From: Oscillospiraceae bacterium
GTDB taxonomy: Bacteria; Bacillota; Clostridia; Oscillospirales; Ruminococcaceae
Reading direction: 5' to 3'
Assembly: GCA_014799385.1 (NCBI GenBank)
Contig: JAAVIC010000004.1
Location: forward strand, 1 to 35,378
DNA length: 35,378 bases
Positions within the stretch are counted from its first letter, which is position 1, and each line of letters opens with the position of its first letter. The notes under the pieces are model-generated. The model was not told the origin of the DNA, made no database searches, and worked only from the letters and a program-made list of their open reading frames with translations. This document shows, one piece after another, positions 4,726-22,142 of this stretch. The position numbers and the translations under genes are program-made.

Positions 4726-7700
4726 ATGGTTTATCGAGTTTATGTGGAGAAAAAGAAAGAGTATGCCGTGGACGGAAAAGCCGTCCTGGAGGACTTGAAT
4801 GTTGCGTTGGGAATGAAGTCCGCGCAGCGCGTTCGGGTGATTAATCGGTATGACGTGGAAGGGCTTTCCGAGGAGGATTTTCGTAAGGCGCTGCCGACCG
4901 TGTTCTCCGAGCCGCCCGTGGACGAGGTGTATTTCGAGCTTCCCTCTCTCGGGGAGAATGAGCGTATGTTCGCGGTGGAGTTTCTTCCCGGGCAGTTCGA
5001 CCAGCGCGCGGATTCGGCGGCGCAGTGCATTCAGATGCTCTGTAAAGGAGAGCGTCCCGATGTTAAATACGCGAAGATATATATTATAAAAGGTGATATT
5101 TCCGAGGACGAGTTCAACCGCGTCAAGCATTATCTGATAAACGCGGTGGAGTCGCGCGAGTGCGGCTTTGAGAAAAAGGACACGCTCAAGGTTACTTATA
5201 CGATTCCGACCGAGGTGGAAACGCTGGACGGATTTATCGGGAAGTCCGACGCGGAGCTTGCGGAGTTTGTCAAGCATTACGGTCTGGCGATGGATAATGA
5301 TGATATCAAGTTCTGTCAGGAGTATTTTAAGGGCGAAAAGCGAAATCCCACAATCACCGAGATTCGTATGATAGATACTTATTGGAGCGACCACTGCCGC
5401 CATACCACATTCGGCACGATTATCGACAAGGCGGACATCAAGCCGCCGTATATCGAAAAGACCTATGCCGAATACCGCGCCGACCGCGAGGAGCTTGGAC
5501 GCGGGAATAAGCCTATATGCCTTATGGATATTGCAACGCTCGCGGCGAAAAAGCTCAAAAAGGACGGTCTGCTGCCCGATTTGGACGAGAGCGAGGAGAT
5601 AAACGCCTGCTCGGTAAAAATCACCGTGGACGTTGACGGCAAGGACGAGGAATGGCTGTTGATGTTCAAAAACGAAACTCACAACCACCCGACCGAGATA
5701 GAGCCTTTCGGCGGCGCGGCTACCTGTCTGGGCGGCGCGATTCGCGACCCGCTTTCGGGGCGGAGCTATGTGTATCAGGCAATGCGCGTGACGGGCGCGT
5801 CAGACCCGCTGCTCCCCGTGGAGAAAACTCTGGCGGGCAAGCTGCCGCCGCGTAAAATCACCACTACCGCCGCCGCGGGATATTCCTCCTACGGAAATCA
5901 GATCGGACTTGCTACGGGTCACGTTGCGGAGATTTACCACCCCGGATATATGGCTAAGCGTATGGAGATAGGCGCGGTTGTCGGCGCGGCTCCGATTGAG
6001 AATGTCCGCCGTGAAAGACCCGCTCCCGGCGATGTTATCATTCTGCTCGGCGGCAGAACGGGACGTGACGGCTGCGGCGGCGCAACAGGCTCGTCAAAGG
6101 CTCACTCGGCGCAGTCGCTGGATAGCTGCGGCGCAGAGGTTCAGAAGGGCAACGCTCCCGAGGAAAGAAAGCTCCAGCGTTTGTTCCGCAATCCCGAGGC
6201 TACGCGGCTTATTAAACGCTGCAACGATTTCGGCGCGGGCGGTGTTTCCGTGGCGATCGGAGAACTGGCGGACGGTCTGGAAATCGACCTCAACGCCGTT
6301 CCCAAGAAGTATGACGGACTGGACGGCACGGAGCTTGCAATTTCCGAATCGCAGGAGAGAATGGCTGTGGTTGTCGCGCCCGAGGACGCGGAAAAATTCC
6401 GCGCGCTGGCGTCGACCGAGAATCTTGAATCCACCGTTGTGGCAACGGTCAAGGAAGAACCGCGCCTTAAAATGATGTGGAACGGCAAGACCATTGTGGA
6501 CATTTCGCGCGAGTTTCTGAACTCCAACGGCGCGGAAAAGCACACCGAGGTATCCGTACCCGAGGTGAATGTTTCCTACTCCAACGGCAGAAGAAACACT
6601 CCCGAGGATTGGGAGAATCTCGTAACCGATTTGAACGTATGCTCGCAGCGCGGATTGGTTCAGCGGTTTGACAGCACTATTGGCGGCGGAACGGTATTAA
6701 TGCCGTTCTCGGGGCGCACTCAGCAGACACCCGTTCAGGCAATGGCGGCGAAAATCCCCGTGCTGGGCGGCTCTACCTCTACCGCGTCCGTTATGGGCTG
6801 GGGATTCAATCCCGCTGTTTCATCGCAGTCCCCGTATCACGGAGCGGCTTGCGCGGTGGTTGAGAGTATTGCCAAGGTAGTCGCGGCGGGCGGAACTTAT
6901 GAGAAGTGTTGGCTGACGTTCCAGGAGTACTTCGAGCGCACACTCGGTAAGGCGGAGCGTTGGGGCAAGCCGTTCTCAGCATTGCTCGGCGCGTATAAGG
7001 CGCAGAAAGCGATGGGCTGCGCGGCAATCGGCGGCAAGGATAGTATGAGCGGAACATTCGGCGAGGCTGGCGGAGATTTGATTGACGTACCGCCTACGCT
7101 CGTTTCGTTCGCGGTTTCCACGGCGAAAACCGACAACATCATCTCCGCGGAGTTTAAGTGTCCGTACAGCTCTCTCGGCTATATCGCGCCTCTCTACGAC
7201 AAGGACGGCTTGCCCGATTTCGAGGACGTAAAGCGCGTATTCAAAACGGTGGAGCGTCTTATCGCCGAGAAAAAGGCAATTTCCGTGTGGAGTGTTGCCA
7301 ACGGCGGTATTGCCGAGGGCGTGTTCAAGATGGGCTTGGGCAACCGAATCGGCGCGAAACTGGTTTCTCTCTCCGATGAGGAGCTGTTCACACCCGTTTA
7401 CGGCGCGTTCGTACTCGAATTGGAGGGCGAGTGTCCCGATGTTCGTATAATAGGCGAAACGATTCCCGAATATGAGATCATCTGCGGAGAAACACGAGTT
7501 GATTCGGCAAAGCTCGAAGATAAGTGGAACGGAGTTCTCGAACCCGTATTCAAGCAAAAGACGAGCTGTCAGCCCGCCCCCGAAAAGGTGGAATACAAGT
7601 GTGAACAGCCGTTTAGTCGCACATCTCCGAAAATTGCAAGTCCGCGCGTGCTTATCCCCGTATTCCCGGGAACGAACTGCGAGTACGACACCGCCGCCGC

Positions 7701-8464: not shown

Positions 8465-8493
8465 TTGACAAATCAAGGCGGATATGATATAAT
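8465..8493 (+). promoter_or_regulatory. Consensus promoter of a short structured RNA
   Basis: TTGACA (8465-8470), a 17-bp spacer and TATAAT (8488-8493). It lies 28 bp after the purL stop and points right, toward the structured region at 8500-8613. Confidence 0.9.
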
Positions 8494-8499
8494 AAAAGT

Positions 8500-8613
8500 G
8501 GCGAGGAGAGTTCGCTTTTCCGCCGATGATTAAGTGCGAGGGTAACACTTTCAAAAAAAGAAAGCCCGGTAGATGACTCTTATCCCGATGCGTTTTTGCG
8601 TGTCGGGATTTTT
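8500..8613 (+). ncRNA. Structured small RNA or riboswitch-like leader, class unknown
   Basis: From the consensus promoter, transcription would start near 8500. The RNA begins with a stem of about 10 bp, GGCG-A-GGAGAG / CUUUUCCGCC, capped by a UUCG tetraloop. A second stem AAGUG/CACUU and a third CUUUC/GAAAG follow. It ends in a 9-bp terminator stem (8584-8592 / 8599-8607) followed by AUUUUU. No open reading frame is present. The next gene is the cation/proton antiporter at 8888, so a riboswitch-controlled attenuator or a stand-alone sRNA are both possible. I compared it from memory with fluoride, c-di-AMP (ydaO), ZTP and THF classes and found no good match. Confidence 0.65.
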
Positions 8614-8721
8614 ACAGAGGCGCACGCTGCGGAGCGCGAGTTTGGCGCGTTATGTACCAAAACAGCGTGACGGGTTGTAATTAAAGTGCGTCCAATCCAA
8701 AGCAACCTATTGGCGACCAGT

Positions 8722-8865
8722 GCAAATTCAAAACGCAAGCTATAGCGACTGCCTTAATTGCGCAGCGTCCGTGCTGCGCTTTGGGCAGTCGCCGGCAACA
8801 TCGTGTTGCGGGTCGCTTGGCGAACACAGACGAGCGTAAGCTCGTCTGTGTGGTTTTGAATTTGC
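8722..8865. repeat. Hairpin-rich inverted-repeat element R3 upstream of the antiporter gene
   Basis: The outer repeats GCAAATTCAAAA (8722-8733) and TTTTGAATTTGC (8854-8865) are identical to those of R2. Inside are a stem GCGACTGCC/GGCAGTCGC containing GCGCAGC/GCTGCGC, a small GCAACA/TGTTGC hairpin, and an 11-bp hairpin (8825-8835 / 8840-8850) that shares AGACGAGC with R2. The element ends 22 bp before the TTG start of the antiporter gene, and the flank GCTATTAAAATA is the same as at purL. Confidence 0.85.
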
Positions 8866-8887
8866 TATTAAAATAAGGGGTGAGACT

Positions 8888-10582
8888 TTGCCTGTTGTGG
8901 TTCTCTTGACGGCAGTTGTTCTTCTGCTGTGCGTGTTCTCCGACCGAATCTCGGGGAAAATCGGCGTGCCTACGCTGCTTATATTTATCGGAATCGGTAT
9001 CTTTTTCGGCTGTGACGGATTGGTGCGAATTCCGTTCGAGAATTACTCGTTCGCGTCGAATTTGTGCGAATGCGCGCTGATAATTATAATGTTTACGGGC
9101 GGATTTTCAATGAGCTGGGACGCCGCCCGCCCTGTGATGGTAAAGGCGGGCGCGCTGGCAACGCTCGGAGTGGCGGTCACCGCGGGTGTGACTTGCGCGT
9201 TCTGTTATTTTATATTGAGATTCCCATTTGCGGAGAGTTTGCTGCTGGGGTCTGTTATCAGCTCCACGGACGCGGCTTCGGTGTTCTCGGTGCTGCGCTC
9301 CAAAAAACTGAACCTCAAAAACGGAATCGCGCCGCTGTTGGAGGCGGAAAGCGGCAGTAACGACCCGTTTTCGTATATGCTGACGGTGGTTTCGCTGTCA
9401 TTGTTTACCCAAAGCGAGGGGCAAGGCGCTATCATTGTGATGATGGTGAAACAGCTTGTGTTCGGCGCGGTGTTCGGCGTGGTCGTGGGAGTATTGGGCG
9501 CAGTCATCGCAAAACAGTTCAAAACGCAGACCAAGGAATTTGAGTGCATTATGTATCTCGCGTTTGCGCTGATGGCATACGGATTCCCCGCGCTGGTCGG
9601 CGGAAACGGGTATTTGTCGGTGTACATCGCCGGAATAATCATCGGAAACGTCAAATCTCCGCGTCATAAATACGGCGGAGAGAATCACGTTAAGCGGTTT
9701 ATCCGCAACACACTGGGTGTCACTATTGCCAAATCCGGAGCGAAAATCGCGCCGCCCGAGGCGGTCGTGTTCCTTAACGGCACTACGGGCATATGCCAAA
9801 TTGCGGTTTTCTTCCTGTTGGGACTGCTCTGCACGCCCTCTCAGCTTGTAACGGGCATATTGCCCGCGATTGGCGTGTTCCTCTGTCTGACGCTGATTTC
9901 ACGCCCGCTTGCCGTGGTGATTTTCGGCGGAAAATCGCCGATTCGCGACAGACTGTTTATCTCGTTCTGCGGACTTCGCGGAGCGTCCTCGATCGTATTC
10001 GCGATTATGGCGACCGTCAGCGGAATCGAAACCGAACACAACATCTTCAATATCGTGTTCTGCGTGTGTTTGATGTCCATGACAATCCAAGGGACGCTGC
10101 TCCCCGCTGCGGCGAAACGTCTGCGGCTTATCGACAGCGACGCAAACGTTCTCAAGACGTTCAACGACTACAAGGAAGAGTCCGCGATTACGATGATGAG
10201 AATGTACATACCCGAAAATCACAACTGGGACGGCAGACAAATCAGCGAGATTTCCGTGCCCACGGGTTCGCTTATCGTAATGGTCAAGCGCGAGGGGGAA
10301 ACAATAATCCCGCGCGGAGATACGGTGATTCACGCGGGCGACAGCGTGATTTTGTCCGTGCCGCCGTATGAGAGCGACAAAAGCAGTCTGCCGCTGCGCG
10401 AAGTTCCGATAAGTGACAAGCACATCTGGCTCAATAAGAGGATTCGCGACCTCAACCTCCCGCAGCGATTGCTTATTGTGATGGTTCAGCGCGGTGAACA
10501 GCGCATTATCCCCTCGGGCGCGACCGAAATCAAGCGTGGGGACGTGGTGGTTATTACCGACACTCTGGAGAGCGCGGAGTGA
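8888..10582 (+). CDS. K+/H+ antiporter of the NhaP2/CvrA type with two RCK_C domains
   Basis: A 564-residue inner-membrane cation/proton antiporter of the CPA1 superfamily. About 12 hydrophobic segments fill residues 1-400. The exchange-site motif is visible as ESGSNDP with N158-D159, preceded by SSTDAA (about 125-130). Two regulatory RCK_C (TrkA_C) domains follow, about 420-478 and 490-562. In Firmicutes such domains bind c-di-AMP (for example CpaA), so control by that nucleotide is plausible. The TTG start at 8888 follows AAGGGGTGAG. Potassium and not sodium as the substrate is inferred from the NhaP2-like RCK_C arrangement. A structured RNA at 8500-8613 may belong to its leader. Confidence 0.88.
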   Translation: MPVVVLLTAVVLLLCVFSDRISGKIGVPTLLIFIGIGIFFGCDGLVRIPFENYSFASNLCECALIIIMFTGGFSMSWDAARPVMVKAGALATLGVAVTAGVTCAFCYFILRFPFAESLLLGSVISSTDAASVFSVLRSKKLNLKNGIAPLLEAESGSNDPFSYMLTVVSLSLFTQSEGQGAIIVMMVKQLVFGAVFGVVVGVLGAVIAKQFKTQTKEFECIMYLAFALMAYGFPALVGGNGYLSVYIAGIIIGNVKSPRHKYGGENHVKRFIRNTLGVTIAKSGAKIAPPEAVVFLNGTTGICQIAVFFLLGLLCTPSQLVTGILPAIGVFLCLTLISRPLAVVIFGGKSPIRDRLFISFCGLRGASSIVFAIMATVSGIETEHNIFNIVFCVCLMSMTIQGTLLPAAAKRLRLIDSDANVLKTFNDYKEESAITMMRMYIPENHNWDGRQISEISVPTGSLIVMVKREGETIIPRGDTVIHAGDSVILSVPPYESDKSSLPLREVPISDKHIWLNKRIRDLNLPQRLLIVMVQRGEQRIIPSGATEIKRGDVVVITDTLESAE

Positions 10583-10897: not shown

Positions 10898-10953
10898 CCT
10901 TAGTCAATACCATAAATTGGCGGTCTTTAGAAGAGTGTTCAAACGTATGTGAA

Positions 10954-11079
10954 ATTGCACAAAAACCCGCATTGTATTTTGGTGAAAGCTCCAAATTTCT
11001 TACATTTCAGGAAGGATTTCTACATCTTGCGCAAAGCGAACAAAAAAGTATTGACAGATTTTCCTGAGTTTGATATACT
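10954..11079 (+). promoter_or_regulatory. Promoter of the C39-lipoprotein operon (regulon copy B)
   Basis: TTGACA (11051-11056), a 17-bp spacer and TATACT (11074-11079). Upstream are two repeats 20 bp apart: TACATTTCAGGAA (11001-11013) and TACATCTTGCGCA (11021-11033), 17 bp before the -35. The whole block from ATTGCACAAAAA onward matches copy A (252 to 126, minus strand) and copy C (16962-17088). The leader of about 90 nt to the peptidase gene shares GTAAAATCGTTCAA with copy C. The segment 10641-10846 before the remnant gene holds nothing I can name. Confidence 0.85.
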
Positions 11080-11172
11080 TAATGAGTAAAATCGTTCAAC
11101 GGTGGATAATCATAATATTATCAATAGCCGATTGGATAATTTTGTTATGGTAACTTTTTAGGAGGACTTGTT

Positions 11173-12117
11173 ATGAACAACAAACTTATTAAAGGCATTT
11201 CGTCTTGTGCATTGGCGGCTATGCTTTTAAGCACTGGGGCGGCGGCACAGACGGCAACACAGGACAATGCGGCTGTCAGCACGGAGAACATAAGTTTTTC
11301 CGGCTGCGTAGAAAAAATCAGAAGCGTTTACACCGAAAGATACCCTGAGCAGATTGATATTGTCAATGGTGTTATTGATGATGTTACATCGGATAAGACG
11401 TTTTCGGAGTATTATGAGTATGAGGGCAAAACTGCGTTCCGTATTCTTGAGGACACGCTGATGGACGCGCTTACGCCAGCGATAGAACCTTATAATTATG
11501 ACGGTCAGGTGGCTTGGACTTCATATACAGTTCCGGTATTAACACAGATGAATGATTATTATTGTGGTCCTGCGGCTGTTCAAATGGCTTTGATTGGAAA
11601 CGGTTTTTGGTCAAATACTTCTGAAAACAGGGAAAACAAAAAACAACAGGAAATTGCAAAAGAACTATCAACAAGTTCAAGTGGAGGAACATATCTTTTC
11701 AAAATAACTGAGTATATGCAAGGTTTCATTTCCAGCGAAACAATCACATATAAATCTAAGTTGTTTACACGTAATACATATGACACAATATTTGGTTTGT
11801 TTTCAACTTCTTTGCGATCTAACAAAGTAATAATTTTGAATATTCCGGACACATCATATCTTGGCTATTACAACGGGAAACGGTATTCTGATGACGGACA
11901 CTATGTAATCATCAAGAAGTTTGATGAAACAAAACGTAAACTCACTGTCGTTGACCCATTCCATTTGAACAAGGTAGACACTGCAACTAACAAGTATTTG
12001 AACAACGAACACGAAATTTCTCTTGATGATTTAATTTCTCTGGCAAAAGACAAGAATTTCTGGGCATCGGTTTATACATACACGGAAGATGACAGCATTA
12101 AATCATATGTATTTTGA
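11173..12117 (+). CDS. Secreted C39-like cysteine peptidase
   Basis: A 314-residue exported protein. A signal peptide covers about residues 1-25 and is cut near AAA-QTA. A Peptidase_C39_2-like papain-fold domain fills about residues 115-275: the nucleophile is C131 in NDYYCGPAAVQMAL, the histidine is H243 in DDGHYVII, and D261 in VVDP completes the triad. The region 40-110 is unassigned. Unlike C39 peptidases of bacteriocin exporters it has no ABC-transporter part. ATG 11173 follows AGGAGGACTTGTT. It is the first gene of an operon with three lipoproteins, starting 13 bp before the first one, and is driven by the tandem-operator promoter at 11051-11079. Its substrate is unknown. Confidence 0.8.
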   Translation: MNNKLIKGISSCALAAMLLSTGAAAQTATQDNAAVSTENISFSGCVEKIRSVYTERYPEQIDIVNGVIDDVTSDKTFSEYYEYEGKTAFRILEDTLMDALTPAIEPYNYDGQVAWTSYTVPVLTQMNDYYCGPAAVQMALIGNGFWSNTSENRENKKQQEIAKELSTSSSGGTYLFKITEYMQGFISSETITYKSKLFTRNTYDTIFGLFSTSLRSNKVIILNIPDTSYLGYYNGKRYSDDGHYVIIKKFDETKRKLTVVDPFHLNKVDTATNKYLNNEHEISLDDLISLAKDKNFWASVYTYTEDDSIKSYVF

Positions 12118-12130
12118 GGAGGACACCACA

Positions 12131-13105
12131 ATGAAAAAGTACACTTTGGCACTCACAGCATTGACACTTACAGCATCTCTTTTGGCAGGCTGCTCAAACA
12201 CAACGAACACACCGAATCCCGCTCAGGGCGGCGATTCAACTACAACGCAGTCTGCAAGCACTACAACCGAATCTACGGAATCAACGGAATCCACCACAGG
12301 CGAAAGTACTCCCGAAATCATTGAAAGGGAGAGGTTTACCTATGGCGAAAAGGAGATTCCCGATATAATTTATTCCCAATATCAACAAGATGATGGCAGA
12401 GCGGTTTTACACAGCGGTGGATTAAATCCCGATTCGCTTGACAGTATGGTGTTTGAAACACACGAGTTCAGCGATTACACGATTCGTATGGTTGGCTATG
12501 ATGTCAGAACCGACAAGAAGCACTTCCCCGGAATCATATACGCAGGCGACCTGCGTTTTGAGGTCGAGAAAAACGGAGTGACGCTATATGAGGTCGACAA
12601 GAACGGAGAAAGAATCTCACCGTCCCGCGAGTACTACACCATAGTTGATGAGTACGGCGAGAGAAGCTATAAATATCCCGAGGGCACAGGTTTTTATGGT
12701 CCATACGGAGAGCAATTCAGCCCGGAACTTCTGATTTTTGAAGACCAAATCGGCAATTATATTGATGTTTATGATATGAAACACCCCGTAATAGCTATTC
12801 GTTATTTCAATGCTGATAACTTTGACGAACCGATTAGAAAGCTTGTTCATTTTGCGTGGATTGAAGATGATTTGGTCGTTGCACGTTTCTTTGGGGATTT
12901 CGCCGAGAACACCGGGGTCGTTGCCGGGGCAAGCGAGTTTCCGAGTTTCACAAAAAGCGGTCAATTTGCCGTTTTCTCCGCGGACGAGTTCAAGGTTGAG
13001 AACGAAAACACACTGGTTGACGAAACAGCGGGAATCAAGTACATCTTCGACTTCGACAAAACAGACGATACGGGTCATTATTTTTCCACCGAGAAAATCC
13101 AATAA
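12131..13105 (+). CDS. Tandem lipoprotein 1
   Basis: A 324-residue lipoprotein of unknown function. The signal peptide ends in LLAGC, so lipidation is expected at Cys-21. A low-complexity Ser/Thr/Glu linker (about 30-60) would hold the domain away from the membrane. The globular part shares with the next two genes the blocks MVFETHEFSDYT, VRTDKKHFPG, EDQIGNYIDVYD and KVENENTLVDETAG. Its start lies 13 bp after the peptidase stop and uses the ribosome-binding site AGGAGGACACCACA, the same in all copies. I recognise no known fold or motif; an exposed binding or immunity role is only a guess. Confidence 0.85.
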   Translation: MKKYTLALTALTLTASLLAGCSNTTNTPNPAQGGDSTTTQSASTTTESTESTESTTGESTPEIIERERFTYGEKEIPDIIYSQYQQDDGRAVLHSGGLNPDSLDSMVFETHEFSDYTIRMVGYDVRTDKKHFPGIIYAGDLRFEVEKNGVTLYEVDKNGERISPSREYYTIVDEYGERSYKYPEGTGFYGPYGEQFSPELLIFEDQIGNYIDVYDMKHPVIAIRYFNADNFDEPIRKLVHFAWIEDDLVVARFFGDFAENTGVVAGASEFPSFTKSGQFAVFSADEFKVENENTLVDETAGIKYIFDFDKTDDTGHYFSTEKIQ

Positions 13106-13133
13106 TTTTCCGAATAAGTAGGAGGACACCACA

Positions 13134-14024
13134 ATGAAAAAACAAATCACAGTAATTACGGCATTAACTCTCGCAGCGGCTCTTCTTGTGGGCTGCTCAA
13201 ACACAACGAACACACCGAATCCCGCTCAGAGCGGCGATTCAACCACAACGCAGTCCACAAGCACCACGACCGAATCCACCACAGAATCTACAATAAGTGA
13301 ATCCATCCTGGAAACTGTTGAAAAGGGACGTTTCGTTTATGGAGAAAAGGAAATTCCCGATATAACTTACCCCGAATACAAGGAAACCGATGGCAGATAT
13401 ATCGCGCCTATGGCGGAGGGCAGAGCCCATGGTCTTGAAAGTATGGTTTTTGAAACACATACCTTCAAGGATTATACAGTCAGCTTGGTTGGCAGTTATG
13501 TTCGTACTGATAAAGAACACTTCCCGGGTACAATCTTCACACAAGAACTCCACATTGAAATTGAAAAGGACGGAAAACGTCTTAGTGACGAGTTCACGAA
13601 CAGTGTAAATTACACACATCCGTATGGCGGAATGGACACTCGCGAGTTCCTGATTTATGAAGACCAAATCGGAGATTACCTGGACATATACGATATGAAA
13701 AATCCCGTAATCGCCATGCGTTATTTTGGGCATGAGGATTTGGAGGAATCGTTCAGAAAAATCGTTGAATTCACATGGATTGAGAACAATACATTTGTTG
13801 GTGGATTCCTAGGGAATTTCGTTGAAAACACAGGAGCGATCGTAGGAGGCGGTGATTCGCTCCAATTCTACTCAGGAGGTCAATACGCGATTTTCGCTGC
13901 GGACGAGTTTAAGGTCGAGAACGAAAATACTCTTGTTGACGAAACAGCGGGAATCAAGTACATCTTCGATTTCGACAAGACAGACGATACGGGGCATTAT
14001 TTTTCTACCGAAAGAATCCAATAA
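13134..14024 (+). CDS. Tandem lipoprotein 2
   Basis: A 296-residue paralogue of the preceding gene, with lipobox LLVGC and a shorter Ser/Thr linker. Its last 45 codons and the following spacer, including AATTTTCCGAATAAGTAGG, are almost identical in DNA to those of lipoprotein 1, which points to recent duplication or gene conversion at the 3' ends. The middle of the protein differs more. It sits 28 bp after gene 1. Function unknown. Confidence 0.85.
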   Translation: MKKQITVITALTLAAALLVGCSNTTNTPNPAQSGDSTTTQSTSTTTESTTESTISESILETVEKGRFVYGEKEIPDITYPEYKETDGRYIAPMAEGRAHGLESMVFETHTFKDYTVSLVGSYVRTDKEHFPGTIFTQELHIEIEKDGKRLSDEFTNSVNYTHPYGGMDTREFLIYEDQIGDYLDIYDMKNPVIAMRYFGHEDLEESFRKIVEFTWIENNTFVGGFLGNFVENTGAIVGGGDSLQFYSGGQYAIFAADEFKVENENTLVDETAGIKYIFDFDKTDDTGHYFSTERIQ

Positions 14025-14052
14025 TTTTCCGAATAAGTAGGAGGACACCACA

Positions 14053-15006
14053 ATGAAAAAACATACTTTGACACTTACAGTATTGACACTTACAGCAGCT
14101 CTTCTTGCGGGCTGCTCAAAAACACCGAACACACCGAATCCCGCTCAGGGCGGCGATTCAACCACAACGCAGTCTGTAAGCACCACGACCGAATCCACGG
14201 AATCAACCGAATCCACCACGGAATCAATACCAATCGCAAGTCTTCCCGATGCGTTTGAAGAGGGGCGTTTCATTTACGGCGAGAAAGAAATCCCCGATTT
14301 GGTGTTTGAAAGCGGCGAATATATCAAAGGCACACATCTCAACGCTCGGCCGGACGGCAGAATGGATCTCAACGGACATGGAAACCCGCATTACGATAAC
14401 CGCCTGCTGGATAGTATGGTGTTTGAAACGCACACCTTCGGCGACTATACGATAAACCTCGTAGGCGATTATGTGAGAACCGACAAAGAACACTTTCCCG
14501 GCAGAATCTTCATGCAAAATCTTCACATTGAAGTTGAGAAAAACGGCGTGAAACTTCCCGCAGAACACGGCGATTGGTTTGGGATGGGATACCAATACCT
14601 CGAAATGTATGCCGTCGGAGACTATCATGGCGAGGAGATGCTTTGTGAAGACCAAATCGGCAGTTATATCGATGTGTACGGCTTAAAAAATCCTGTAATC
14701 GCAATGCGGTATATTTACGGCTATGATTACAACGAGTCCGTGCAGAAAGCCGTTTCCTTTGCAAGAATCGAGAATGACCAAATTGTCGGCGAATACTTCA
14801 GGGATTTTGCGGAGAATACGGGTGTTTTCATTTCCGGCGGTCCAGAGCTTTCAAAAGGTGGTTTCTACGCTGTATATTCCGAAGACAAGTTTAAGGTTGA
14901 AAACGAAAATACGCTGATTGATGAAACAGCAGGAATCAGGTACATTTTTGATTTCGACAGCGCAGACGATGTTGAGAATCATTCGTTCACCGAGAAGATC
15001 GGGTGA
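14053..15006 (+). CDS. Tandem lipoprotein 3
   Basis: A 317-residue paralogue, with lipobox LLAGC followed by a Ser/Thr-rich linker. It keeps the shared blocks (MVFETHTFGDYT, VRTDKEHFPGRI, EDQIGSYIDVYG, FAENTG) but has an insertion near residues 80-115 and a C-terminus that differs from copies 1 and 2, so it is the most diverged of the three. It ends the operon; a terminator hairpin follows at 15022-15046. Function unknown. Confidence 0.85.
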   Translation: MKKHTLTLTVLTLTAALLAGCSKTPNTPNPAQGGDSTTTQSVSTTTESTESTESTTESIPIASLPDAFEEGRFIYGEKEIPDLVFESGEYIKGTHLNARPDGRMDLNGHGNPHYDNRLLDSMVFETHTFGDYTINLVGDYVRTDKEHFPGRIFMQNLHIEVEKNGVKLPAEHGDWFGMGYQYLEMYAVGDYHGEEMLCEDQIGSYIDVYGLKNPVIAMRYIYGYDYNESVQKAVSFARIENDQIVGEYFRDFAENTGVFISGGPELSKGGFYAVYSEDKFKVENENTLIDETAGIRYIFDFDSADDVENHSFTEKIG

Positions 15007-15021
15007 ATTAATCTTCTTGTT

Positions 15022-15055
15022 CCGCGGAAACCAAAGCATTCCGCGGGATATTTTT
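15022..15055 (+). terminator. Terminator of the lipoprotein operon
   Basis: CCGCGGAA (15022-15029) pairs with TTCCGCGG (15039-15046), followed by GATATTTTT. It lies just after the stop of the third lipoprotein gene. Confidence 0.7.
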
Positions 15056-15065
15056 CAAAAACCCC

Positions 15066-15173
15066 TTGACAAACCGTTATTTTTGTGGTATAATATAAAT
15101 AATGTTATAACCGTACAGCGAAAACGTCTGATTGAAATAAACGTTTCATTGGGAACTGAAAATATGGTATAAT
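15066..15173 (+). promoter_or_regulatory. Promoters of tRNA-Ala
   Basis: The first is TTGACA (15066-15071), 17 bp, TATAAT (15089-15094) with extended -10 TGG. A second -10, TATGG-TATAAT at 15168-15173, has only a weak -35 (TTCATT, 15145-15150) but lies at a better distance from the tRNA start at 15205. Confidence 0.75.
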
Positions 15174-15204
15174 GTTATCGTTGATGGAATACCGTCAGCA
15201 GTCC

Positions 15205-15280
15205 GGGGGTATAGCTCAGTTGGGAGAGCGCTTGCTTCGCATGTAAGAGGTCAGGGGTTCGAATCCCCTTATCTCCACCA
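15205..15280 (+). tRNA. tRNA-Ala (anticodon CGC)
   Basis: A 76-nt cloverleaf with encoded CCA. The acceptor stem GGGGGTA pairs with TATCTCC (some G-U pairs). The D-loop is AGCTCAGTTGGGAGAGC. The anticodon stem CTTGC/GTAAG carries the loop TTCGCAT, giving CGC, and the T-arm is AGGGGTTCGAATCCCCT. The last 17 bases are the attachment site of the element to the right and are repeated at 35201-35217; the tRNA is intact because the element supplies the same 3' end. Confidence 0.95.
15264..15280 (+). repeat. attL: left attachment core of the element
   Basis: The 17 bases TCCCCTTATCTCCACCA at the tRNA-Ala 3' end recur exactly at 35201-35217. The bases on both sides of the repeat differ between the two copies, so the identity segment is exactly 17 bp. 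Confidence 0.92.
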
Positions 15281-15287
15281 AATAACC

Positions 15288-15321
15288 AATAAACCGCATT
15301 GTTGTGCGGTTTATTTCTTTT
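15288..15321 (+). terminator. Terminator behind tRNA-Ala, inside the element
   Basis: AATAAACCGCA (15288-15298) pairs perfectly with TGCGGTTTATT (15305-15315), and TCTTTTT follows. It would end the tRNA transcript and shield the oppositely oriented integrase. Confidence 0.8.
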
Positions 15322-15322
15322 T

Positions 15323-15341
15323 ATCCCCGAAAAATCCCCGA
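15323..15341 (+). repeat. Candidate integrase arm-type sites, left end
   Basis: ATCCCCGA occurs at 15323-15330 and 15334-15341, 11 bp apart. The same pair with the same 11-bp spacing is at 35055-35062 and 35066-35073 near the other end. Paired short direct repeats inside both ends are the usual form of arm sites bound by the integrase N-terminal domain. Confidence 0.6.
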
Positions 15342-15356
15342 TTTTTGAGTAAAAAA

Positions 15357-16493
15357 TTATTTTGGGACTATTTTGTCGAGAATCTTCACAGCTCTTTCTT
15401 CCTCGCGCGAGTACAAATGACTGTAAGTATTCAAAGTCATTTTTATATCGGCATGACCAAGTCGCCTTGCGATTTCTTGAATGTTTACGCCCTCGTTCAC
15501 CAATACAGAAACGTGAGAGTGCCTGAAATCGTGGATTCGTATATGTGGAAGTCCTGCGGCTTTCGCAAATGCTGTATTCTTCTTTTCAATCGTTGTATCG
15601 GGCAGCGGACGTTCACCGCCACAGATACGGAAATCCTCGCTGAATAGGTGCGTAGCCGCTCGTTGTCGTTCTTTATGCTCTGCCAGAATGTCAAGCAACG
15701 GCTGTGGAGCTTGTATATCGCGAACGCTGCTCGGATTTTTAGGCGGCGTTTCCACTATGTCTTCACCCTTGATTTTCTGCGTGATACTGCGCCTTATGTG
15801 AATAATATTCCCCTCGATGTCCGACCACTTCAAAGCATTGATCTCGCCCTTACGCGCTCCCGTATAGAACGCAACTGCAAAGAAAACATAATATCCCCAG
15901 TCACTAACGTTGTGTGTGTTCTCTTTTGCAATTGCAAGAAAATCAACGAACTGCGCTGCTGTGTAATACTGTATTTTCTCGGCAGGCTTGTCAAAGCGGT
16001 TAGCGTCCTTGAATGTTCTCAAAGCGGAGAGCGGATTTTTCGGCAAGTAATCCAGCTTCACGGCATAGTTGAGCATTGAGTTAAATGCTTGGTAGATGTT
16101 CTTCTTTGTGACTATCGACAAGTCTTGAGCCGCGATGCTGTTCTTCCAGTCCGCAAGCCGTTCCTTTGAGAGTCTGTCAAGTCTGCAATCTGCCATATTC
16201 GGCAAAACGTGTGTTCTCAATATCTGCATTGCCTTGTTATGAGATGATTGACGCGTTTCGTGAGAGTGATACACCTCATATTCGTTGAAAAGCTCTTGAA
16301 TGGTTTTCCGTACAATGACTGTCTGCTTGTCCTTGTATTCTGCAATAAGCTGTTTCTCAAGCAGATTAGCCTCAGCAAGCCCGTAAGCGGTACGCTCAAT
16401 CTGTTTGGGATTTCCGTTCATATCTGTATAATTGATTCGCACACGATAGCCCTGCAATCCGTTTTTCTTCTTATCAATCTTGTTTATTGGCAT
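15357..16493 (-). CDS. Tyrosine recombinase (integrase) of the element
   Basis: This 378-residue phage/ICE-type integrase catalyses site-specific recombination at the tRNA-Ala attachment site. An N-terminal arm-binding domain (about 1-60) precedes a SAM-like core-binding domain (about 62-165) and a C-terminal catalytic domain (about 175-370). The catalytic residues are present: R214 (TGARKGE), K252, H321 and R324 (HDFRHSH), H347 (LGHADI) and Y357 (NTYSHL). The start follows GGGGGTGTTACG and the promoter is at 16517-16545. Its 3' end faces the tRNA and the attachment site is 77 bp beyond its stop. No excisionase is obvious next to it. Confidence 0.95.
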   Translation of the reverse strand: MPINKIDKKKNGLQGYRVRINYTDMNGNPKQIERTAYGLAEANLLEKQLIAEYKDKQTVIVRKTIQELFNEYEVYHSHETRQSSHNKAMQILRTHVLPNMADCRLDRLSKERLADWKNSIAAQDLSIVTKKNIYQAFNSMLNYAVKLDYLPKNPLSALRTFKDANRFDKPAEKIQYYTAAQFVDFLAIAKENTHNVSDWGYYVFFAVAFYTGARKGEINALKWSDIEGNIIHIRRSITQKIKGEDIVETPPKNPSSVRDIQAPQPLLDILAEHKERQRAATHLFSEDFRICGGERPLPDTTIEKKNTAFAKAAGLPHIRIHDFRHSHVSVLVNEGVNIQEIARRLGHADIKMTLNTYSHLYSREEERAVKILDKIVPK

Positions 16494-16516
16494 CGTAACA
16501 CCCCCTTCTGACTCCC

Positions 16517-16545
16517 ATTATATCATATTCAGGTCAAGAATGCAA
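16517..16545 (-). promoter_or_regulatory. Integrase promoter
   Basis: On the minus strand TTGCAT (16540-16545), a 17-bp spacer and TATAAT (16517-16522), 24 bp from the integrase start codon. Confidence 0.8.
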
Positions 16546-16961
16546 GTGAAAATTTCAGTACTGCCCGCACAATATAAGCCGTCTCTCGTTGCATATATAC
16601 GTTTATAAAGTGACAACTTTTTGTAAAAATCAGGGCTTATACTGTGTTTTTAAAGGGTAAATCAGTGTAATTTTGTCGTGCTGTCCGGTAAGAGTGGACA
16701 GCATATTACTTCCAATCGCAACCAGACTATCCACACTTCACATTATTTAAGGTACTCCTTAAAATGGTGTATACTTCAAAACCTGCCTGTATGTATATTC
16801 CGAGCGAATTATACAATTGGTTAATAAAATCCTTGTTTTATATCGCCATGTCTGAGTTGATTTCAATTTCAGTTACTATACCAAATAGATAATAGTTATG
16901 GGCAGTTTTCCATGTAGAAAAGTTTAAAAGTGAGATGGAGATTATGTTCAAGTGTTGTGAA
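16546..16961. other. Gene-free stretch
   Basis: No supportable gene. A perfect 8-bp hairpin TGCTGTCC (16679-16686) / GGACAGCA (16696-16703) is the only clear structure. The following promoter copy C begins at about 16962. Confidence 0.5.
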
Positions 16962-17088
16962 AATAAACAAAATGTAATCAGATTTTTTGTTGAAAGTTCC
17001 AAAGTTTTTACACGTTGCGCAGGATTTTGACATCTTGCGCAAAGCTTGTGAAAAGGGTATTGACGAATGGGCGAAGGTATACTATAAT
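16962..17088 (+). promoter_or_regulatory. Promoter with tandem operator inside the element (regulon copy C)
   Basis: TTGACG (17060-17065), a 17-bp spacer and TATAAT (17083-17088). Two repeats exactly 20 bp apart, TACACGTTGCGCA (17009-17021) and GACATCTTGCGCA (17029-17041), end 18 bp before the -35. Of the three copies this one has the best-matched repeat pair (11 of 13 positions). It matches the chromosomal copies at 126-252 (minus strand) and 10954-11079, including the transcribed GTAAAATTGTCCAA. Confidence 0.85.
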
Positions 17089-17128: not shown

Positions 17129-17788
17129 ATGATAAACCTATTAATAGATTCCTTTATATCTCAAAGGGAAAAAATGTCAACAAGAGCGAGAAAATATCTT
17201 TTTTTATCTATATCACTTATTGTAGTATCGTTCGTTGTCTTTTTAATATTTATTACAAATGTTAATTGGACATGGTGTGGGGTTATCTCGATAATCACTG
17301 CTATTGCTTATCTTGGGGTGTTGGCTAAATGGGAAAATGTAAATCGAAAAGATGTTAGTACAAGGTTCTCTAACTACAACAATAGATTAGATGGTTTAAG
17401 AGATACCCTTATTAATTTTCAATATCAGAAAGGAAATGAAAATATAAATTGGTACTCAAAGAACAAAATTCAGTATTTGATTGATATGTGTAATGAATTG
17501 GTAGGGGAACTCTCGTCTCCTAAAATAAAGTATACTGAATTTCTAAAGCTTACCATACTTCCCATTGTTTCTTTTTCTGCTGGTGTATTGGCTGATAAAG
17601 CTTCCTTAGAAATTTCATTATCAATTGCGATTCTTGCGATTCTTTTTGTTATCTTTATTTGGGAAATAAAACAACTTTATGTATTTGTTATAAATTTTAT
17701 TTTTAAAAGTTCTTCTACAGATGAATTGAAGAATTTAACTTATGCTTTGAATGATTTATTAATTAGGGATTTTGGCGAATCAGAATAA
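17129..17788 (+). CDS. Four-helix membrane protein, unknown function
   Basis: A 219-residue AT-rich protein with two membrane segments near the N-terminus (about residues 22-43 and 48-68), a soluble central part with a predicted helical stretch (about 80-130), and two more segments near the C-terminus (about 137-155 and 160-195). I start at ATG 17129, eight bases after AAGGAG; the TTG at 17123 is less well placed. It is a single-gene unit under the tandem-operator promoter shared with the chromosome. That link would fit an immunity, sensing or effector role tied to the host regulon, but there is no homologue I recognise. Confidence 0.75.
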   Translation: MINLLIDSFISQREKMSTRARKYLFLSISLIVVSFVVFLIFITNVNWTWCGVISIITAIAYLGVLAKWENVNRKDVSTRFSNYNNRLDGLRDTLINFQYQKGNENINWYSKNKIQYLIDMCNELVGELSSPKIKYTEFLKLTILPIVSFSAGVLADKASLEISLSIAILAILFVIFIWEIKQLYVFVINFIFKSSSTDELKNLTYALNDLLIRDFGESE

Positions 17789-18307: not shown

Positions 18308-20092
18308 ATGAACGCAAAATACAAAATTGAAACCTTTAGCTTTAGAAAATTGCGTGAGTGTATACGTATTCCAACATTTCAAAGGAATGTTGTTTGGAAC
18401 GATGATAAGCGAAAAGAGTATATGGATACTGTTCTTAAAGGATTTCCGTTTGGTTCTTTACTGTTGTATAAAGAAACTCCTGAAACATACTTGTTGGTAG
18501 ATGGACTTCAAAGATATACTACATTGAAGGACTTCTTAAAATATCCTCAAAACTACATAAATATTGAAAAGAACTGCAAATCGGAAATAAACGATATTAT
18601 AGAATTGTTGAAAGAGTCAGGGGTTCAAACAAATTACTCCGTAATCAGAACAGATACTATTAACAGTATCAAGCAAAATTTTTCGCTTACCAAAGAATTA
18701 GGCGAAATGGTTGATGCAATCGCAAATGATGTTTCTGTGTTGCAACAAAACACAAAGTGCCTTACACAATTGATTGCTATGCTTCAAAAGTTGCAGTTGC
18801 AATATAATATTCTTGATATTGAAATTCCTTTGATAATCTATCAAGGCGACTATGATGATTTGCCGTCAATATTTGAAAAGGTAAACGCTAACGGAACTCA
18901 ATTAAGCAGATATGATATATATGCTGCAGCATGGAGTCGAGTTGAATTTGATTATAATGATATATCCATTCTTGAATTGGTTGACTCTAAGTATACCGAT
19001 ATGATTGAGCGTACAGGTGTGGAGATTTCAAATTACTCTCCGGGACAAGTAATGAAAGAACAGCGTATCAATCTTTTTGAGTTTTGTTTTGCGTTTGGAA
19101 AGCAATTAAAAAAAGAATGTCCTCATATTTTTTTGACTAAAAGAACCGAGTCCTCAGATGTTGATTCAGTCGGATTTTTGTTGCTAAGCGCAATTCTTAA
19201 CAATAGCATTAAGTCATTAGACGGTATAAAAAGGTATTTCGAGAATGTCGAAAGTGACTTCACAAATGGTTTAATCAACTTAAAAACAAAAATATTAGAA
19301 TGTGCTAAAAAAGTAGAAGACATCCTTGGCAAATACATTATGACAATTGATGGGAAAAATCTGGCTAAGGCAATCGATTCACAGATAATTACCATCGTCG
19401 CTTCGCTTTTCAAGATTAAGTACTCATTGAAACCGAACTCTTTTGAGGTAACACCTAATACCAACTGTAAAAAGATAGTTTCTACTTTTGAGCTGTGTAT
19501 GCCCAAACGGTATCTGTACGATATAATCAGGGGATATTGGTCGGGTTCAGGAGATACTAAAGCAACAGATGAGCTTTCTAAGCCGTTAGAAAATAATATT
19601 TACCTACTTCCCATACAGAAGGATTCATGGGAAACAACCCTTATGGATTGGATGACAGATCAAATTCAAAAACCTGCTAAAATGATAACACCGGAAATCA
19701 AATTGTTCCTTAATTATATTATACGTAAGAACATCTCCGAAACACGGTATGCAGGAAAGAAATTTGATTTTGCGCTTATAATTACCAAAAAGCGATTCGC
19801 TGATTGTTTTAGCAACAGACCGGGAATGGCTACAGTTGGAAATGTTTGTATACTGCCGGAATACGAGAACAGAAGTGCTCAAACATACACACTTTACGAA
19901 GATGAAGAACTTAGAAAAACTATCACAAACAGCAACACCAATACATTAAACGATTTTCTTTATCCCGAAAGGTCAGAGTTGTCGTTTACCGCTTCTACCC
20001 AAACAATGACTTATGATCGTTATTTATTCTTTGTAAACAATCGTCATAAATATCTGATTAACATTTTCTTTAAGCTTTATGGTATAAACTAA
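18308..20092 (+). CDS. DUF262 (GmrSD-like) protein, probable defence gene
   Basis: A 594-residue protein with an N-terminal DUF262 domain, the ParB/Srx-fold NTP-binding domain of type IV restriction enzymes such as GmrS and related defence proteins. Visible motifs are IPTFQRNVVW (21-30), GFPFGSLLLYKE, the nucleotide-site motif VDGLQRYTTL with D65-G-L-Q-R69, and IFEKVNANGTQLSRYD (about 190). The C-terminal half has an echo of DUF1524 (VGNVCILPEYENRSAQ), but the HIxP histidine of the HNH nuclease is absent: the corresponding segment reads FDFALIITKKRF. So it may not cut DNA by an HNH mechanism. It is a single gene with its own promoter and terminator, AT-rich like other cargo. A restriction-type defence role is inferred from the family. 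Confidence 0.8.
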   Translation: MNAKYKIETFSFRKLRECIRIPTFQRNVVWNDDKRKEYMDTVLKGFPFGSLLLYKETPETYLLVDGLQRYTTLKDFLKYPQNYINIEKNCKSEINDIIELLKESGVQTNYSVIRTDTINSIKQNFSLTKELGEMVDAIANDVSVLQQNTKCLTQLIAMLQKLQLQYNILDIEIPLIIYQGDYDDLPSIFEKVNANGTQLSRYDIYAAAWSRVEFDYNDISILELVDSKYTDMIERTGVEISNYSPGQVMKEQRINLFEFCFAFGKQLKKECPHIFLTKRTESSDVDSVGFLLLSAILNNSIKSLDGIKRYFENVESDFTNGLINLKTKILECAKKVEDILGKYIMTIDGKNLAKAIDSQIITIVASLFKIKYSLKPNSFEVTPNTNCKKIVSTFELCMPKRYLYDIIRGYWSGSGDTKATDELSKPLENNIYLLPIQKDSWETTLMDWMTDQIQKPAKMITPEIKLFLNYIIRKNISETRYAGKKFDFALIITKKRFADCFSNRPGMATVGNVCILPEYENRSAQTYTLYEDEELRKTITNSNTNTLNDFLYPERSELSFTASTQTMTYDRYLFFVNNRHKYLINIFFKLYGIN

Positions 20093-20127
20093 TAAACGGG
20101 CATATGTAGATTGATATAAATAACCGA

Positions 20128-20161
20128 AAGGGAGTAGCAATACAGCAACTCCCTTTTTTTA
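20128..20161 (+). terminator. Terminator of the DUF262 gene
   Basis: An AGGGAGT/ACTCCCT stem is followed by a run of seven or more T. It begins about 35 bp after the DUF262 stop. Confidence 0.85.
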
Positions 20162-20427
20162 TCGGCAATCATAAAAATCCGCGACTGAAATGTTGGTATC
20201 AACTATCTATATCCCGTAACTGTAAATATTTTCCAAAATGTAAACCTACCCCCGCCGCTCTCTTGCACAGTCGGACGGCTCCCACGCTTCGAATCGCTCC
20301 ATATTAAACGATAGTATGCTAGACATATAACTTACACCACCAACCCATTAAAACGCAACACAGAGCCGCGCACGCTTTAATTTTGGCGGCTTCTGCGGAC
20401 GGTGTAGCCGCTCGATTCCTTTCAAAT
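20162..20427. other. Gene-free stretch
   Basis: No gene, promoter or strong structure that I can support between the DUF262 terminator and the first operator at 20428. Confidence 0.5.
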
Positions 20428-20520
20428 ATACACACGATGCGAATGTATAAAGTGCACAAAAAATACACACAAACTTTGTGTATTTTTGCTATTGACATTC
20501 ACACGAAATAGGTGTATAAT
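20428..20520 (+). promoter_or_regulatory. Repressed promoter with three operators (array 1)
   Basis: Promoter TTGACA (20492-20497), 17 bp, TATAAT (20515-20520). Three 21-bp inverted repeats of the form ATACACAC-N7-GTGTAT lie at 20428-20448 (right half ATGTAT), 20463-20483 (perfect) and 20497-20517 (left half ATTCACAC). The third covers the space between -35 and -10, so binding would block the polymerase. It duplicates array 2 at 21573-21679. A leader hairpin (GTAAGGG / CCCTTAC) follows before the 32-codon gene. Confidence 0.85.
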
Positions 20521-20579
20521 ATAATTACAAGGTAAGGGACGGCAAAAACAAAATCCCCTTACGGAAAGGAGATTCTGAA

Positions 20580-20678
20580 ATGGTCGTTGCTTTAATCGGG
20601 CTAGTGTTTGGGGTTTGCATAGCTACCAATCTGTACAACCTCACCACGGCACACAATGACAACGACAAACGCGACTAA
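20580..20678 (+). CDS. 32-residue hydrophobic peptide, possible type I toxin
   Basis: ATG 20580 follows AGGAG at 20567-20571 with 8 bp spacing. The peptide has about 15 hydrophobic residues at its N-terminus (MVVALIGLVFGVCIA) and a charged tail (HNDNDKRD). This plan resembles small membrane toxins of the Fst type, though no specific family motif is seen. It is the first gene after repressor-controlled promoter 1. A consensus promoter on the opposite strand (20746-20774) points back at its 3' end, as in antisense-controlled type I toxin-antitoxin loci. It could instead be a harmless small membrane protein or a leader. Confidence 0.6.
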   Translation: MVVALIGLVFGVCIATNLYNLTTAHNDNDKRD

Positions 20679-20710
20679 CCAGAATCGCGGAATATGTTAG
20701 GGGTGATGAA

Positions 20711-20728
20711 ACGGCGGAGCGGACTCCG
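20711..20728. repeat. Hairpin between the two converging transcripts
   Basis: GGCGGAG and CTCCGCC form a 7-bp stem with a 4-base loop, flanked by AGGGG and CCCCT that can extend it. It lies in the region transcribed from both strands, downstream of the small peptide gene. Confidence 0.5.
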
Positions 20729-20745
20729 CCAACTCCCCTATACAT

Positions 20746-20774
20746 ATTATACCACATCAACTCGAATTTGTCAA
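20746..20774 (-). promoter_or_regulatory. Antisense promoter facing the 32-residue peptide gene
   Basis: On the minus strand TTGACA (20769-20774), a 17-bp spacer and TATAAT (20746-20751), with extended -10 TGTGG. No gene on that strand follows, so the product is likely an antisense RNA across 20739 to at least 20680. A CGCGA/TCGCG stem followed by a T-rich stretch could end it near 20670. The -35 overlaps the ribosome-binding site of the gene at 20785. Confidence 0.7.
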
Positions 20775-20784
20775 GGAGGAAAAT

Positions 20785-21165
20785 ATGTATTACACATCGA
20801 AAACCCCAAAAATCGGCGCATTGCTTATAGCATTTGAAACCGCCGAAAAGAACGCTACAAGCGAAGAGATGAAAAACGAAGTCAAGGCGGCTTTTCAGGC
20901 AGCTATGAAGTATTTTATCCCTTATAAGCTTGTAGGACTTATTCACGAAGAGGACGGCAGCGCGAAACTTGGTATATTCCAGTCGTCCGATGTTCGTGAC
21001 AAGTGGCTGAGACCCGCAAAGAGAAAAAAGCTCAGAACGGAAAAGGGCAACGGCTACAATCTGCAACCCACTTACCACGCTAATTTCGGCATTGATTACG
21101 ACAAAATCACGGGGAGGGAAATTTCGGACGATTTAACAAGTGTTATTTACACAATTAGCAGATAA
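20785..21165 (+). CDS. Hypothetical protein, 126 residues
   Basis: A soluble, lysine-rich protein with no motif I recognise. ATG 20785 follows AAGGAGGA. The N-terminal half looks helical (about residues 12-50), followed by a region with many basic residues (RPAKRKKLRTEKG, about 75-88) that could touch nucleic acid. It is the second gene after repressor-controlled promoter 1 and lies between the two operator arrays, so it belongs to the early, repressor-controlled set of the element. Confidence 0.7.
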   Translation: MYYTSKTPKIGALLIAFETAEKNATSEEMKNEVKAAFQAAMKYFIPYKLVGLIHEEDGSAKLGIFQSSDVRDKWLRPAKRKKLRTEKGNGYNLQPTYHANFGIDYDKITGREISDDLTSVIYTISR

Positions 21166-21169
21166 CAAA

Positions 21170-21199
21170 AAGGGCGAGAGTTGAGAAGCTCTCGCCCTT
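21170..21199 (-). terminator. Terminator between converging genes
   Basis: AAGGGCGAGAG (21170-21180) pairs perfectly with CTCTCGCCCTT (21189-21199). On the minus strand TTTTTG follows, which fits the end of the repressor transcript; on the plus strand it also follows the gene at 20785 closely. Confidence 0.8.
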
Positions 21200-21317
21200 A
21201 ATCATTGCCAATACAGCAGAGCCGAACCACTGAATTAAAACCGCTCGGCTCTATGTGTTTCGATTTTACGGTCTGAAAGCAGAGAGAACCCAAACACCGC
21301 GCCACCGTTCTCGGTTG

Positions 21318-21548
21318 TCATTCTTCTTTGGGTTTGTCGGTATCATCAGGAATATATTCCAGCAGATCCCCCGGTTGACAATTCAAGAGTTTACAAATTA
21401 AAGCAAGAACATCATAAGAAACGCTCTCTTGATGTCTCAATCTCGATAGAACCCTTTCGCCTAGTAACTTTTCTTGCCTAATCTTATATGAAGAATATCC
21501 AGCCTTTTTTAAGGCTTCCAACACATCAATTTTGTATCTTATAGGCAT
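21318..21548 (-). CDS. XRE-family repressor of the element
   Basis: A 76-residue Cro/C1-type helix-turn-helix protein. The HTH runs about residues 14-60, with the recognition helix around LGERVLSRLRHQ and the usual continuation SYDVLALICKLLNCQPGDLLEY. There is no separate oligomerisation or protease domain. I start at 21548 after GAGGTGATAAT, not at the upstream frame from 21665, because that region holds the promoter and operators. Its promoter (21573-21601) overlaps operator 21587-21607, so it probably represses itself as well as the divergent promoter 21651-21679 and the duplicate promoter 20492-20520. It is the likely master switch between the integrated and active states. Confidence 0.88.
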   Translation of the reverse strand: MPIRYKIDVLEALKKAGYSSYKIRQEKLLGERVLSRLRHQESVSYDVLALICKLLNCQPGDLLEYIPDDTDKPKEE

Positions 21549-21572
21549 ATTATCACCTCTTTCTGTACTCTT

Positions 21573-21679: not shown

Positions 21680-21743
21680 ATAATTACAGAGAGGGAAACA
21701 CAAACCCACTCTGAATAAAACACATTATACAAGGAGGTTCAAT

Positions 21744-22121: not shown

Positions 22122-22142
22122 GCCCATAAAGGAGGATTTTTA

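Follow-up and report, generated by a model that had tools for sequence, protein, structure and literature searches.

The systems closest to the regulatory block described here are the bacteriocin regulons controlled by response regulators of the LytTR family. In the available part of one report (PMC6193735), promoters under LytTR control are described as carrying two 9-bp direct repeats, with 11–13 bp between them, located 4–11 bp upstream of the −35 element, and the accessible sections of a study of the pln loci indicate that the right repeat is the better kept of the two (PMC2714321). We analyzed a stretch of 35,378 nucleotides from an Oscillospiraceae bacterium (contig JAAVIC010000004.1 of assembly GCA_014799385.1), hereafter called the window, in which a block of about 127 bp with a pair of direct repeats and a core promoter is present three times. 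We propose that this block joins a 90-bp array, repeated in many genomes of the same genus, to a sigma-70-type promoter, and that the array is probably an activator site for a LytTR response regulator, most likely an orphan regulator designated here type A.

Anatomy and Distribution of the Array

An earlier note on this DNA had placed blocks of 126–127 bp at positions 252–126 (minus strand), 10954–11079, and 16962–17088, and all three were found there. In each copy, the direct repeats, which are TACAT-like, are exactly 20 bp apart and are followed by a strong core promoter with a 17-bp spacer (Table 1), and the distance from TTGCGCA to the −35 element, announced as 17–18 bp, was measured as 18 bp (left), 17 bp (middle), and 18 bp (right). 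The distal repeat of the middle copy is degenerate (TACATTTCAGGAA). Although the two repeats exist as described, the conserved unit is longer than this pair and reaches about 90 bp by including GTNAAATTNNACAAA and TTTTGNNNAAA on the upstream side.

A whole-genome profile search, which the earlier note had proposed, raised the number of copies in the window's own genome from 3 to 12. With blastn, the middle copy retrieved the other two from this 2.69-Mb genome (E = 2.3e-19 and 2.6e-9) together with four more places, and a model of 90 positions, derived from the sequences of 30 copies alone, gave the 12 arrays, all at E ≤ 1e-6. Over 61 genomes, blastn matches were obtained in 12, all belonging to the same genus (12 of its 37 genomes, own genome included, and none of the 24 others). 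When the model was applied to 43 genomes of the genus, matches at E ≤ 0.01, many of them weak, were found in at least 37, and, among the matches listed, at least 94 strong arrays (≥24 bits in the profile search) were present in 23 genomes. The 92 stretches fetched comprise every listed match of at least 33 bits outside the window and four weaker ones (G025 C2, G007 C6, G005 C7, and G012 C74), the only matches below 33 bits to be fetched; the last three are under 24 bits and were not counted as strong.

In the samples searched, the array was restricted to this genus. An order-wide sample of 295 genomes, searched at E ≤ 1e-6 with stricter filters that lose weak matches, gave no match in the 294 genomes other than the own genome (1 of the same genus, G010; 19 listed as the same family; 274 not listed). 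A degenerate pattern matched 46 stretches among GTDB contigs, 37 of which hold arrays and come from records named Oscillospiraceae, Ruminococcaceae, Ruminococcus, or Clostridia metagenome-assembled genomes. The remaining nine, from Alphaproteobacteria or other unrelated records, were rejected as chance matches: they scored at most 17.5 bits (one gave no match) and the upstream half was absent. For phage-borne arrays, an exact pattern gave no match in IMG/VR, which is weak evidence, as this pattern fits only part of the arrays.

Conservation and Promoter Phasing

Conservation was analyzed in 90 copies, 4 of the 94 being of odd length and left out of the logo. In array numbering, the conserved positions are GTNAAATTNNACAAA at 3–17, TTTTGNNNAAA at 31–41, and TTACANNTNNCGCARRATTTYKACATCTTGCGCAA at 54–88. 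Selected positions inside the array exceed 1.5 bits, whereas single bases carry 0.02–0.33 bits over the 15 bp before the array and 0.05–0.22 over the first five after it. The 20-bp spacing of the repeats is also seen in the ungapped 3′ part of the 90 copies, and the proximal repeat is the better conserved.

Within the 110 bases that follow the array, a promoter score of at least 11.5 was reached in 76 of 93 copies versus 2.4% of shuffled sequences, and a looser score of at least 10 in 89 of 93 versus 25% (one copy with too little downstream sequence was left out). In these 89 copies, the −35 element starts 3–5 bp (45 copies), 13–17 bp (22), 36–38 bp (17), or 43–48 bp (5) after the array. The best of nine periods tried was 10.5 bp (R 0.89, and 0.83 for 56 non-redundant copies), with 10.75 bp almost equal. 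Such spacing in about whole helical turns suggests a protein that must be bound on a single side of the helix so as to face RNA polymerase, and thus an activator. The −35 sequence itself differs between classes, with a preference for TTGAAA in the 3–5 bp class and for TTGATT in the 36-bp class. The three window copies all fall in the class of 14–15 bp, which accounts for the fixed gap seen by the earlier reader; this gap holds for the trio and its class, but elsewhere it is about 10 bp shorter or about 21–30 bp longer.

The repeat period of the array agrees with the 20–22 bp given for LytTR sites in the available parts of two studies (PMC6193735, PMC2714321). Compared with the 4–11 bp that separate LytTR repeats from the −35 element, 45 of the 89 copies are at 3–5 bp, and the other 44 are about one, three, or four turns further.

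Candidate Regulator

Since 42 of the 43 genomes of the genus have LytTR genes, membership in this family alone is uninformative, and LytTR genes in general were rejected as the regulator for want of discrimination. Type A is an orphan response regulator of about 234 amino acids, composed of a receiver (Response_reg) and a LytTR domain, and was found at ≥46% identity in 19 of 43 genomes (C6:18247–18930 in the own genome). In the 42 genomes of a PurL tree, from which G024 was left out as it lacks PurL, 17 have both arrays and type A, 6 only arrays, 2 only type A, and 17 neither (phi 0.63), the mean number of arrays per genome being 4.5 with type A versus 0.39 without. An association as strong was reached in none of 5000 Mk simulations of an independently evolving trait on this tree. 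Some array-free sisters of array-bearing species are also without type A (G011 beside G027, G064 beside G025, and G018 beside G016), G011 and G018 being only 86% and 73% complete. A DUF5085-like peptide locus, the other candidate tried, is present in 11 genomes and was rejected as sole regulator, its weaker association being reached by 63 of 5000 simulations.

In two genomes (G006 and G036), type A belongs to an operon with an array at its head, together with genes for a sigma factor, a DUF4367 protein, and a secreted-looking protein (domains were tested in G006). A LytTR gene near further copies, which the earlier note suggested looking for, is thus found in these two genomes but not in the own genome. 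The note's naming of a LytTR-type regulator is strengthened to the extent that such a protein is the best candidate by architecture, phased spacing, phylogenetic co-occurrence with one LytTR clade, and apparently autoregulatory placement in two genomes; its binding to the array is predicted from these sequence features.

Several observations weigh against this assignment. The repeat unit ACANNTNNCGCA is longer than the known 9-bp LytTR repeats and resembles them only in part: it has some positions in common with ComE and BlpR sites. It is unlike the TACGTTAAT of PlnC (PMC2714321). One or two arrays occur without type A in G004, G009, G020, G023, G033, and G065, and type A occurs without a strong array in G012 and G015, G004 and G015 forming a contrary pair; several genomes are incomplete (69–90%). 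As type A was chosen after it had been sighted in array operons, the co-occurrence test was not wholly blind, and it covered two candidates, type A and the DUF5085-like gene, so that another gene could do equally well. In the own genome, the type A gene has no array, and none of the three LytTR genes lies on an array-bearing contig. Conservation of type A is no higher in the DNA-binding half than in the receiver (52% vs. 59% mean identity). As to phasing, no copy among the 89 belongs to a two-turn class (about 25 bp), and the 3–5 bp class dominates, so that other periods score too (12 and 8 bp reach R 0.62–0.63).

Proposed Mechanism and Alternative Explanations

We propose that the 127-bp block would consist of a 90-bp activator-binding array followed by a sigma-70-type promoter. 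Type A would approach the DNA from a single helical face, bind the two direct repeats and perhaps the two upstream elements as well, and recruit RNA polymerase, and the distance from the array to the −35 element could change by about whole turns without loss of function. The array would then act as a genus-specific regulatory address on host and integrated-element genes, so that defense, competition, and secreted functions may be turned on together. The binding, the activation, the co-expression of array genes, and the signal are inferred from these data.

The array may instead be a true operator read by a protein of another family, for example an AraC-type regulator or another helix-turn-helix dimer, with type A merely traveling along. 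Both repeats contain the near palindrome TTGCGCAA, at which the profile matches its own reverse complement and whose cores such a dimer could read, and AraC-type sites are also direct repeats of about 20 bp beside the −35 element; the narrow range of candidates in our co-occurrence tests also favors this explanation. We consider it rather unlikely, since none of the 5000 tree simulations reached the type A association, type A lies within an array-headed operon in two genomes, and LytTR promoters agree with the arrays in the period and position of the repeats (PMC6193735, PMC2714321). A repressor or silencing function of the array is improbable. Many core promoters are near consensus and could fire unaided, but the sites are wholly upstream of the −35 element and the phase is kept over several distances, as is required of an activator but not of a blocking repressor.

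The earlier note had set its proposal against that of an ordinary repeat scattered over many unrelated loci. The loci are indeed many and unrelated, some of them near serine or tyrosine recombinase genes, and copies of the 36-bp class have a longer sequence in common, as a dispersed repeat or mobile promoter element with no common regulator might. Such an element should, however, show likeness over its whole length and defined ends, whereas conservation here is selective and, except in the 36-bp class, is lost outside the array. Because regulatory positions are conserved while the flanks are not, and because promoter spacing is quantized, we do not regard the array as an ordinary repeat and hold this explanation to be very improbable. 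Two other candidates were rejected: an RNA element (Rfam gives only the tRNA in the window, and the array is upstream of the promoter) and Spo0A boxes (TTCGACA, whose C and G are only 64–68% conserved). Activation by a LytTR regulator thus remains our preferred explanation.

Genes behind the Arrays

Within the window, the operator-promoter is common to host and element genes, as the earlier note had stated: the middle array heads a C39 peptidase-lipoprotein operon, and the right array precedes a membrane protein gene within what seems to be an integrated element starting at a tRNA and an integrase. No right end of the element was found on the contig when exact 18-base repeats of the 3′ part of the tRNA were sought. 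In contrast, the gene that the left copy was thought to drive at the contig edge could not be confirmed. A 119-bp sequence identical to the end of contig C19 begins 6 bp after its −10 element, and because the contig ends in this repeat, the target of the left array cannot be seen. On C6 of G034, too, an array is followed by a sequence resembling this repeat. No Pfam or PADLOC family matched the membrane protein. Downstream of the right array, GmrSD-like, AbiJ-like, and CAP12-type TIR genes were noted (18308–25176), and a RelA/SpoT-domain protein is encoded further along the contig (33341–34300).

Table 1. Coordinates of the features of the window and, in the last row, loci of a short open reading frame (ORF) in several genomes.
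Feature	Position	Strand	Details
Left array (90-bp operator)	170–259	minus	67.1 bits (90-position model); direct repeats 193–205 and 173–185
Left core promoter	126–154	minus	TTGACA-17-TATAAT; −35 at 149–154, −10 at 126–131
Repeat identical to end of contig C19	1–119		Hides downstream gene of left array
Middle array	10947–11036	plus	75.5 bits; direct repeats 11001–11013 and 11021–11033
Middle core promoter	11051–11079	plus	TTGACA-17-TATACT; −35 at 11051–11056, −10 at 11074–11079
Secreted-looking C39-like peptidase	11173–12117	plus	First gene of middle-array operon; PF13529, 4.5e-08
Three lipoprotein-like genes	12131–13105, 13134–14024, 14053–15006	plus	Same operon as the C39-like peptidase; no Pfam family
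tRNA	15205–15277		Apparent left edge of element carrying right array
Tyrosine integrase	15357–16493	minus	Same apparent left edge
Right array	16955–17044	plus	Behind integrase of element; 79.1 bits; direct repeats 17009–17021 and 17029–17041
Right core promoter	17060–17088	plus	TTGACG-17-TATAAT; −35 at 17060–17065, −10 at 17083–17088
Membrane protein behind right array	17129–17788	plus	Weakly SLATT-like; NCBIfam SLATT_1 24.2 bits, cut-off 41
13–16 aa ORF loci	L226, upstream of 8480–8941 (own genome C6); L276–L279, L281–L286

Other arrays of the own genome lie in front of genes for a SIR2 protein, a cyclase-domain protein, and a protein that is HEPN-like but below cut-off, as well as genes of unknown function. 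They also precede a secreted-looking protein gene with an ABC ATPase gene after it, and a pair of genes for a small secreted-looking and a lipoprotein-like protein. A PADLOC match was obtained for 1 of 10 proteins tested (8 behind own arrays and 2 G062 counterparts of own C25:21680). We compared 72 non-redundant array first genes (26,935 amino acids) with 72 random genes (19,927 amino acids) drawn from 9 genomes (20 stretches), among them G007, which lacks a strong array. At E ≤ 1e-5, 61 PADLOC families were matched versus 15 in controls, these counts being of families, many of the 61 corresponding to models of a single Cas3. By a rough rule, an N-terminal hydrophobic segment was detected in 27 array first genes versus 11 controls.

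Array operons also contain a Thoeris pair, SIR2-STALD with ThsB-TIR (G031), other SIR2 proteins (own C25, G014, and G029), a protein kinase (G016), an endonuclease/phosphatase-family protein (G034), a metallophosphatase (G033), Cas3, and a phage-type contractile tail sheath (G006). An array with a tail-sheath operon was observed at L088 (Pfam-tested) and L110 (similar sequence), and an array-driven SIR2 protein (L067:4070–6073) has a C-terminal response-regulator receiver domain. The cargo is very mixed, and a mainly secreted-peptidase system, as first envisaged, is not upheld. A purely anti-phage regulon was also rejected, known defense genes not being the majority of targets; "defense regulon" is too narrow a term, and "conflict and surface genes" describes the cargo fairly.

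Possible Recombination Sites near the Arrays

A dif-like 18-mer, GGATAATTGTATATTATC, was found within 300 bases after 20 of 94 arrays (≤3 mismatches) and never in a reversed control; it resembles the core of Xer dif sites. The whole own genome contains three occurrences (≤2 mismatches), two of them just after an array. XerC/XerD-like recombinases, scoring below equivalog cut-offs, were matched in 10 of 93 fetched loci (528 kb) versus none of 20 control stretches (200 kb), although two of the ten (L088 and L110) hold only C-terminal remnants, between array and operon. The contig ends within 600 bases downstream of 9 of the 94 arrays, perhaps owing to repeats or mixed orientations at the site.

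On contig C3 of the own genome, perfect 41-bp inverted repeats (37829–37869 and 43038–43078; L080:781–821 and 5990–6030), which include a ribosome site and start codon, lie behind an array promoter, next to a divergent XerC-like recombinase. The 5.2 kb between them hold two operons in opposite orientation. With this layout, inversion would exchange the driven operon, and this one locus may possibly be an invertible gene switch. No other inverted pair of at least 17 bases was found flanking cargo in the fetched loci, whose flanks extend at most about 6.4 kb. Cross-species proof of the inversion failed, the other GH77 proteins of the genus being at most 36% identical.

Possible Peptide Signal

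Upstream of the type A gene of the own genome lie a tiny ORF (MKFWDFIARLFGGF) and a DUF5085-like gene (27.9 bits against a cut-off of 30), and a GHKL kinase and a second LytTR regulator are encoded divergently from them. The DUF5085-like gene is present in 11 of 43 genomes, directly preceded, at the 10 of 11 loci that matched the pattern, by a Trp/Phe-rich ORF of 13–16 amino acids (aa) resembling MxFWDxIxxxIFG (L280 was missed). Type A shares a contig with it in 8 of these 11 genomes, within 1 kb in seven and at 11 kb in G019. By neighborhood alone (peptide ORF, DUF5085-like gene, and GHKL kinase/LytTR pair), quorum control is plausible, and a peptide pheromone as the signal is a guess.

More broadly, the array might be the control end of a portable expression platform, combining a peptide-signaled LytTR activator array, a strong promoter, a dif-like site, and a XerC-like recombinase. 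Defense, weapon, and secreted genes would be captured or inverted there, as in a regulated integron- or shufflon-like locus, and mobile elements would plug conflict genes into a host-wide switch. We regard this scenario as doubtful at present.

Comparison with Known Systems

These results offer a testable answer as to how newly arrived defense or competition genes are regulated: such genes may bring along, or insert downstream of, a standard regulatory address that a single response regulator reads. Type A is a named regulator to test, the regulon of any genome in the genus is predictable from sequence alone, and a possible gene-swapping site is pointed to behind the promoter. No description of such an array regulon was found in the literature searched, whose scope excluded subscription papers and preprints.

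As far as the accessible parts of the reports describe them, the LytTR bacteriocin regulons of Lactobacillus plantarum (PlnC/PlnD, PMC2714321) and Streptococcus mutans (HdrR/BrsR LytTR regulatory systems, LRS, PMC6193735) share with the arrays a pair of direct repeats about two turns apart and directly upstream of the −35 element, a stronger proximal repeat (pln), autoregulation, and antagonism genes as targets. The arrays differ from them by a longer unit (ACANNTNNCGCA), two extra conserved upstream elements, and several phased distances, and their targets, unlike those of the bacteriocin regulons, are scattered over the chromosome and mobile elements and include anti-phage genes. Common regulators of defense islands such as RptR (PMC12255303) resemble the proposed system in that a single regulator acts on phage-defense genes; RptR is called a repressor, whereas here an activator is likely and the targets are scattered. 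With Xer/dif-type and invertible-DNA systems, the loci have in common the dif-like 18-mer, the XerC-like recombinase, and the 41-bp inverted pair, but here the putative inversion or capture would be coupled to a phased activator array. What is new is the extended, phased operator, the scatter of its likely targets over host and mobile DNA, and the possible recombination site.

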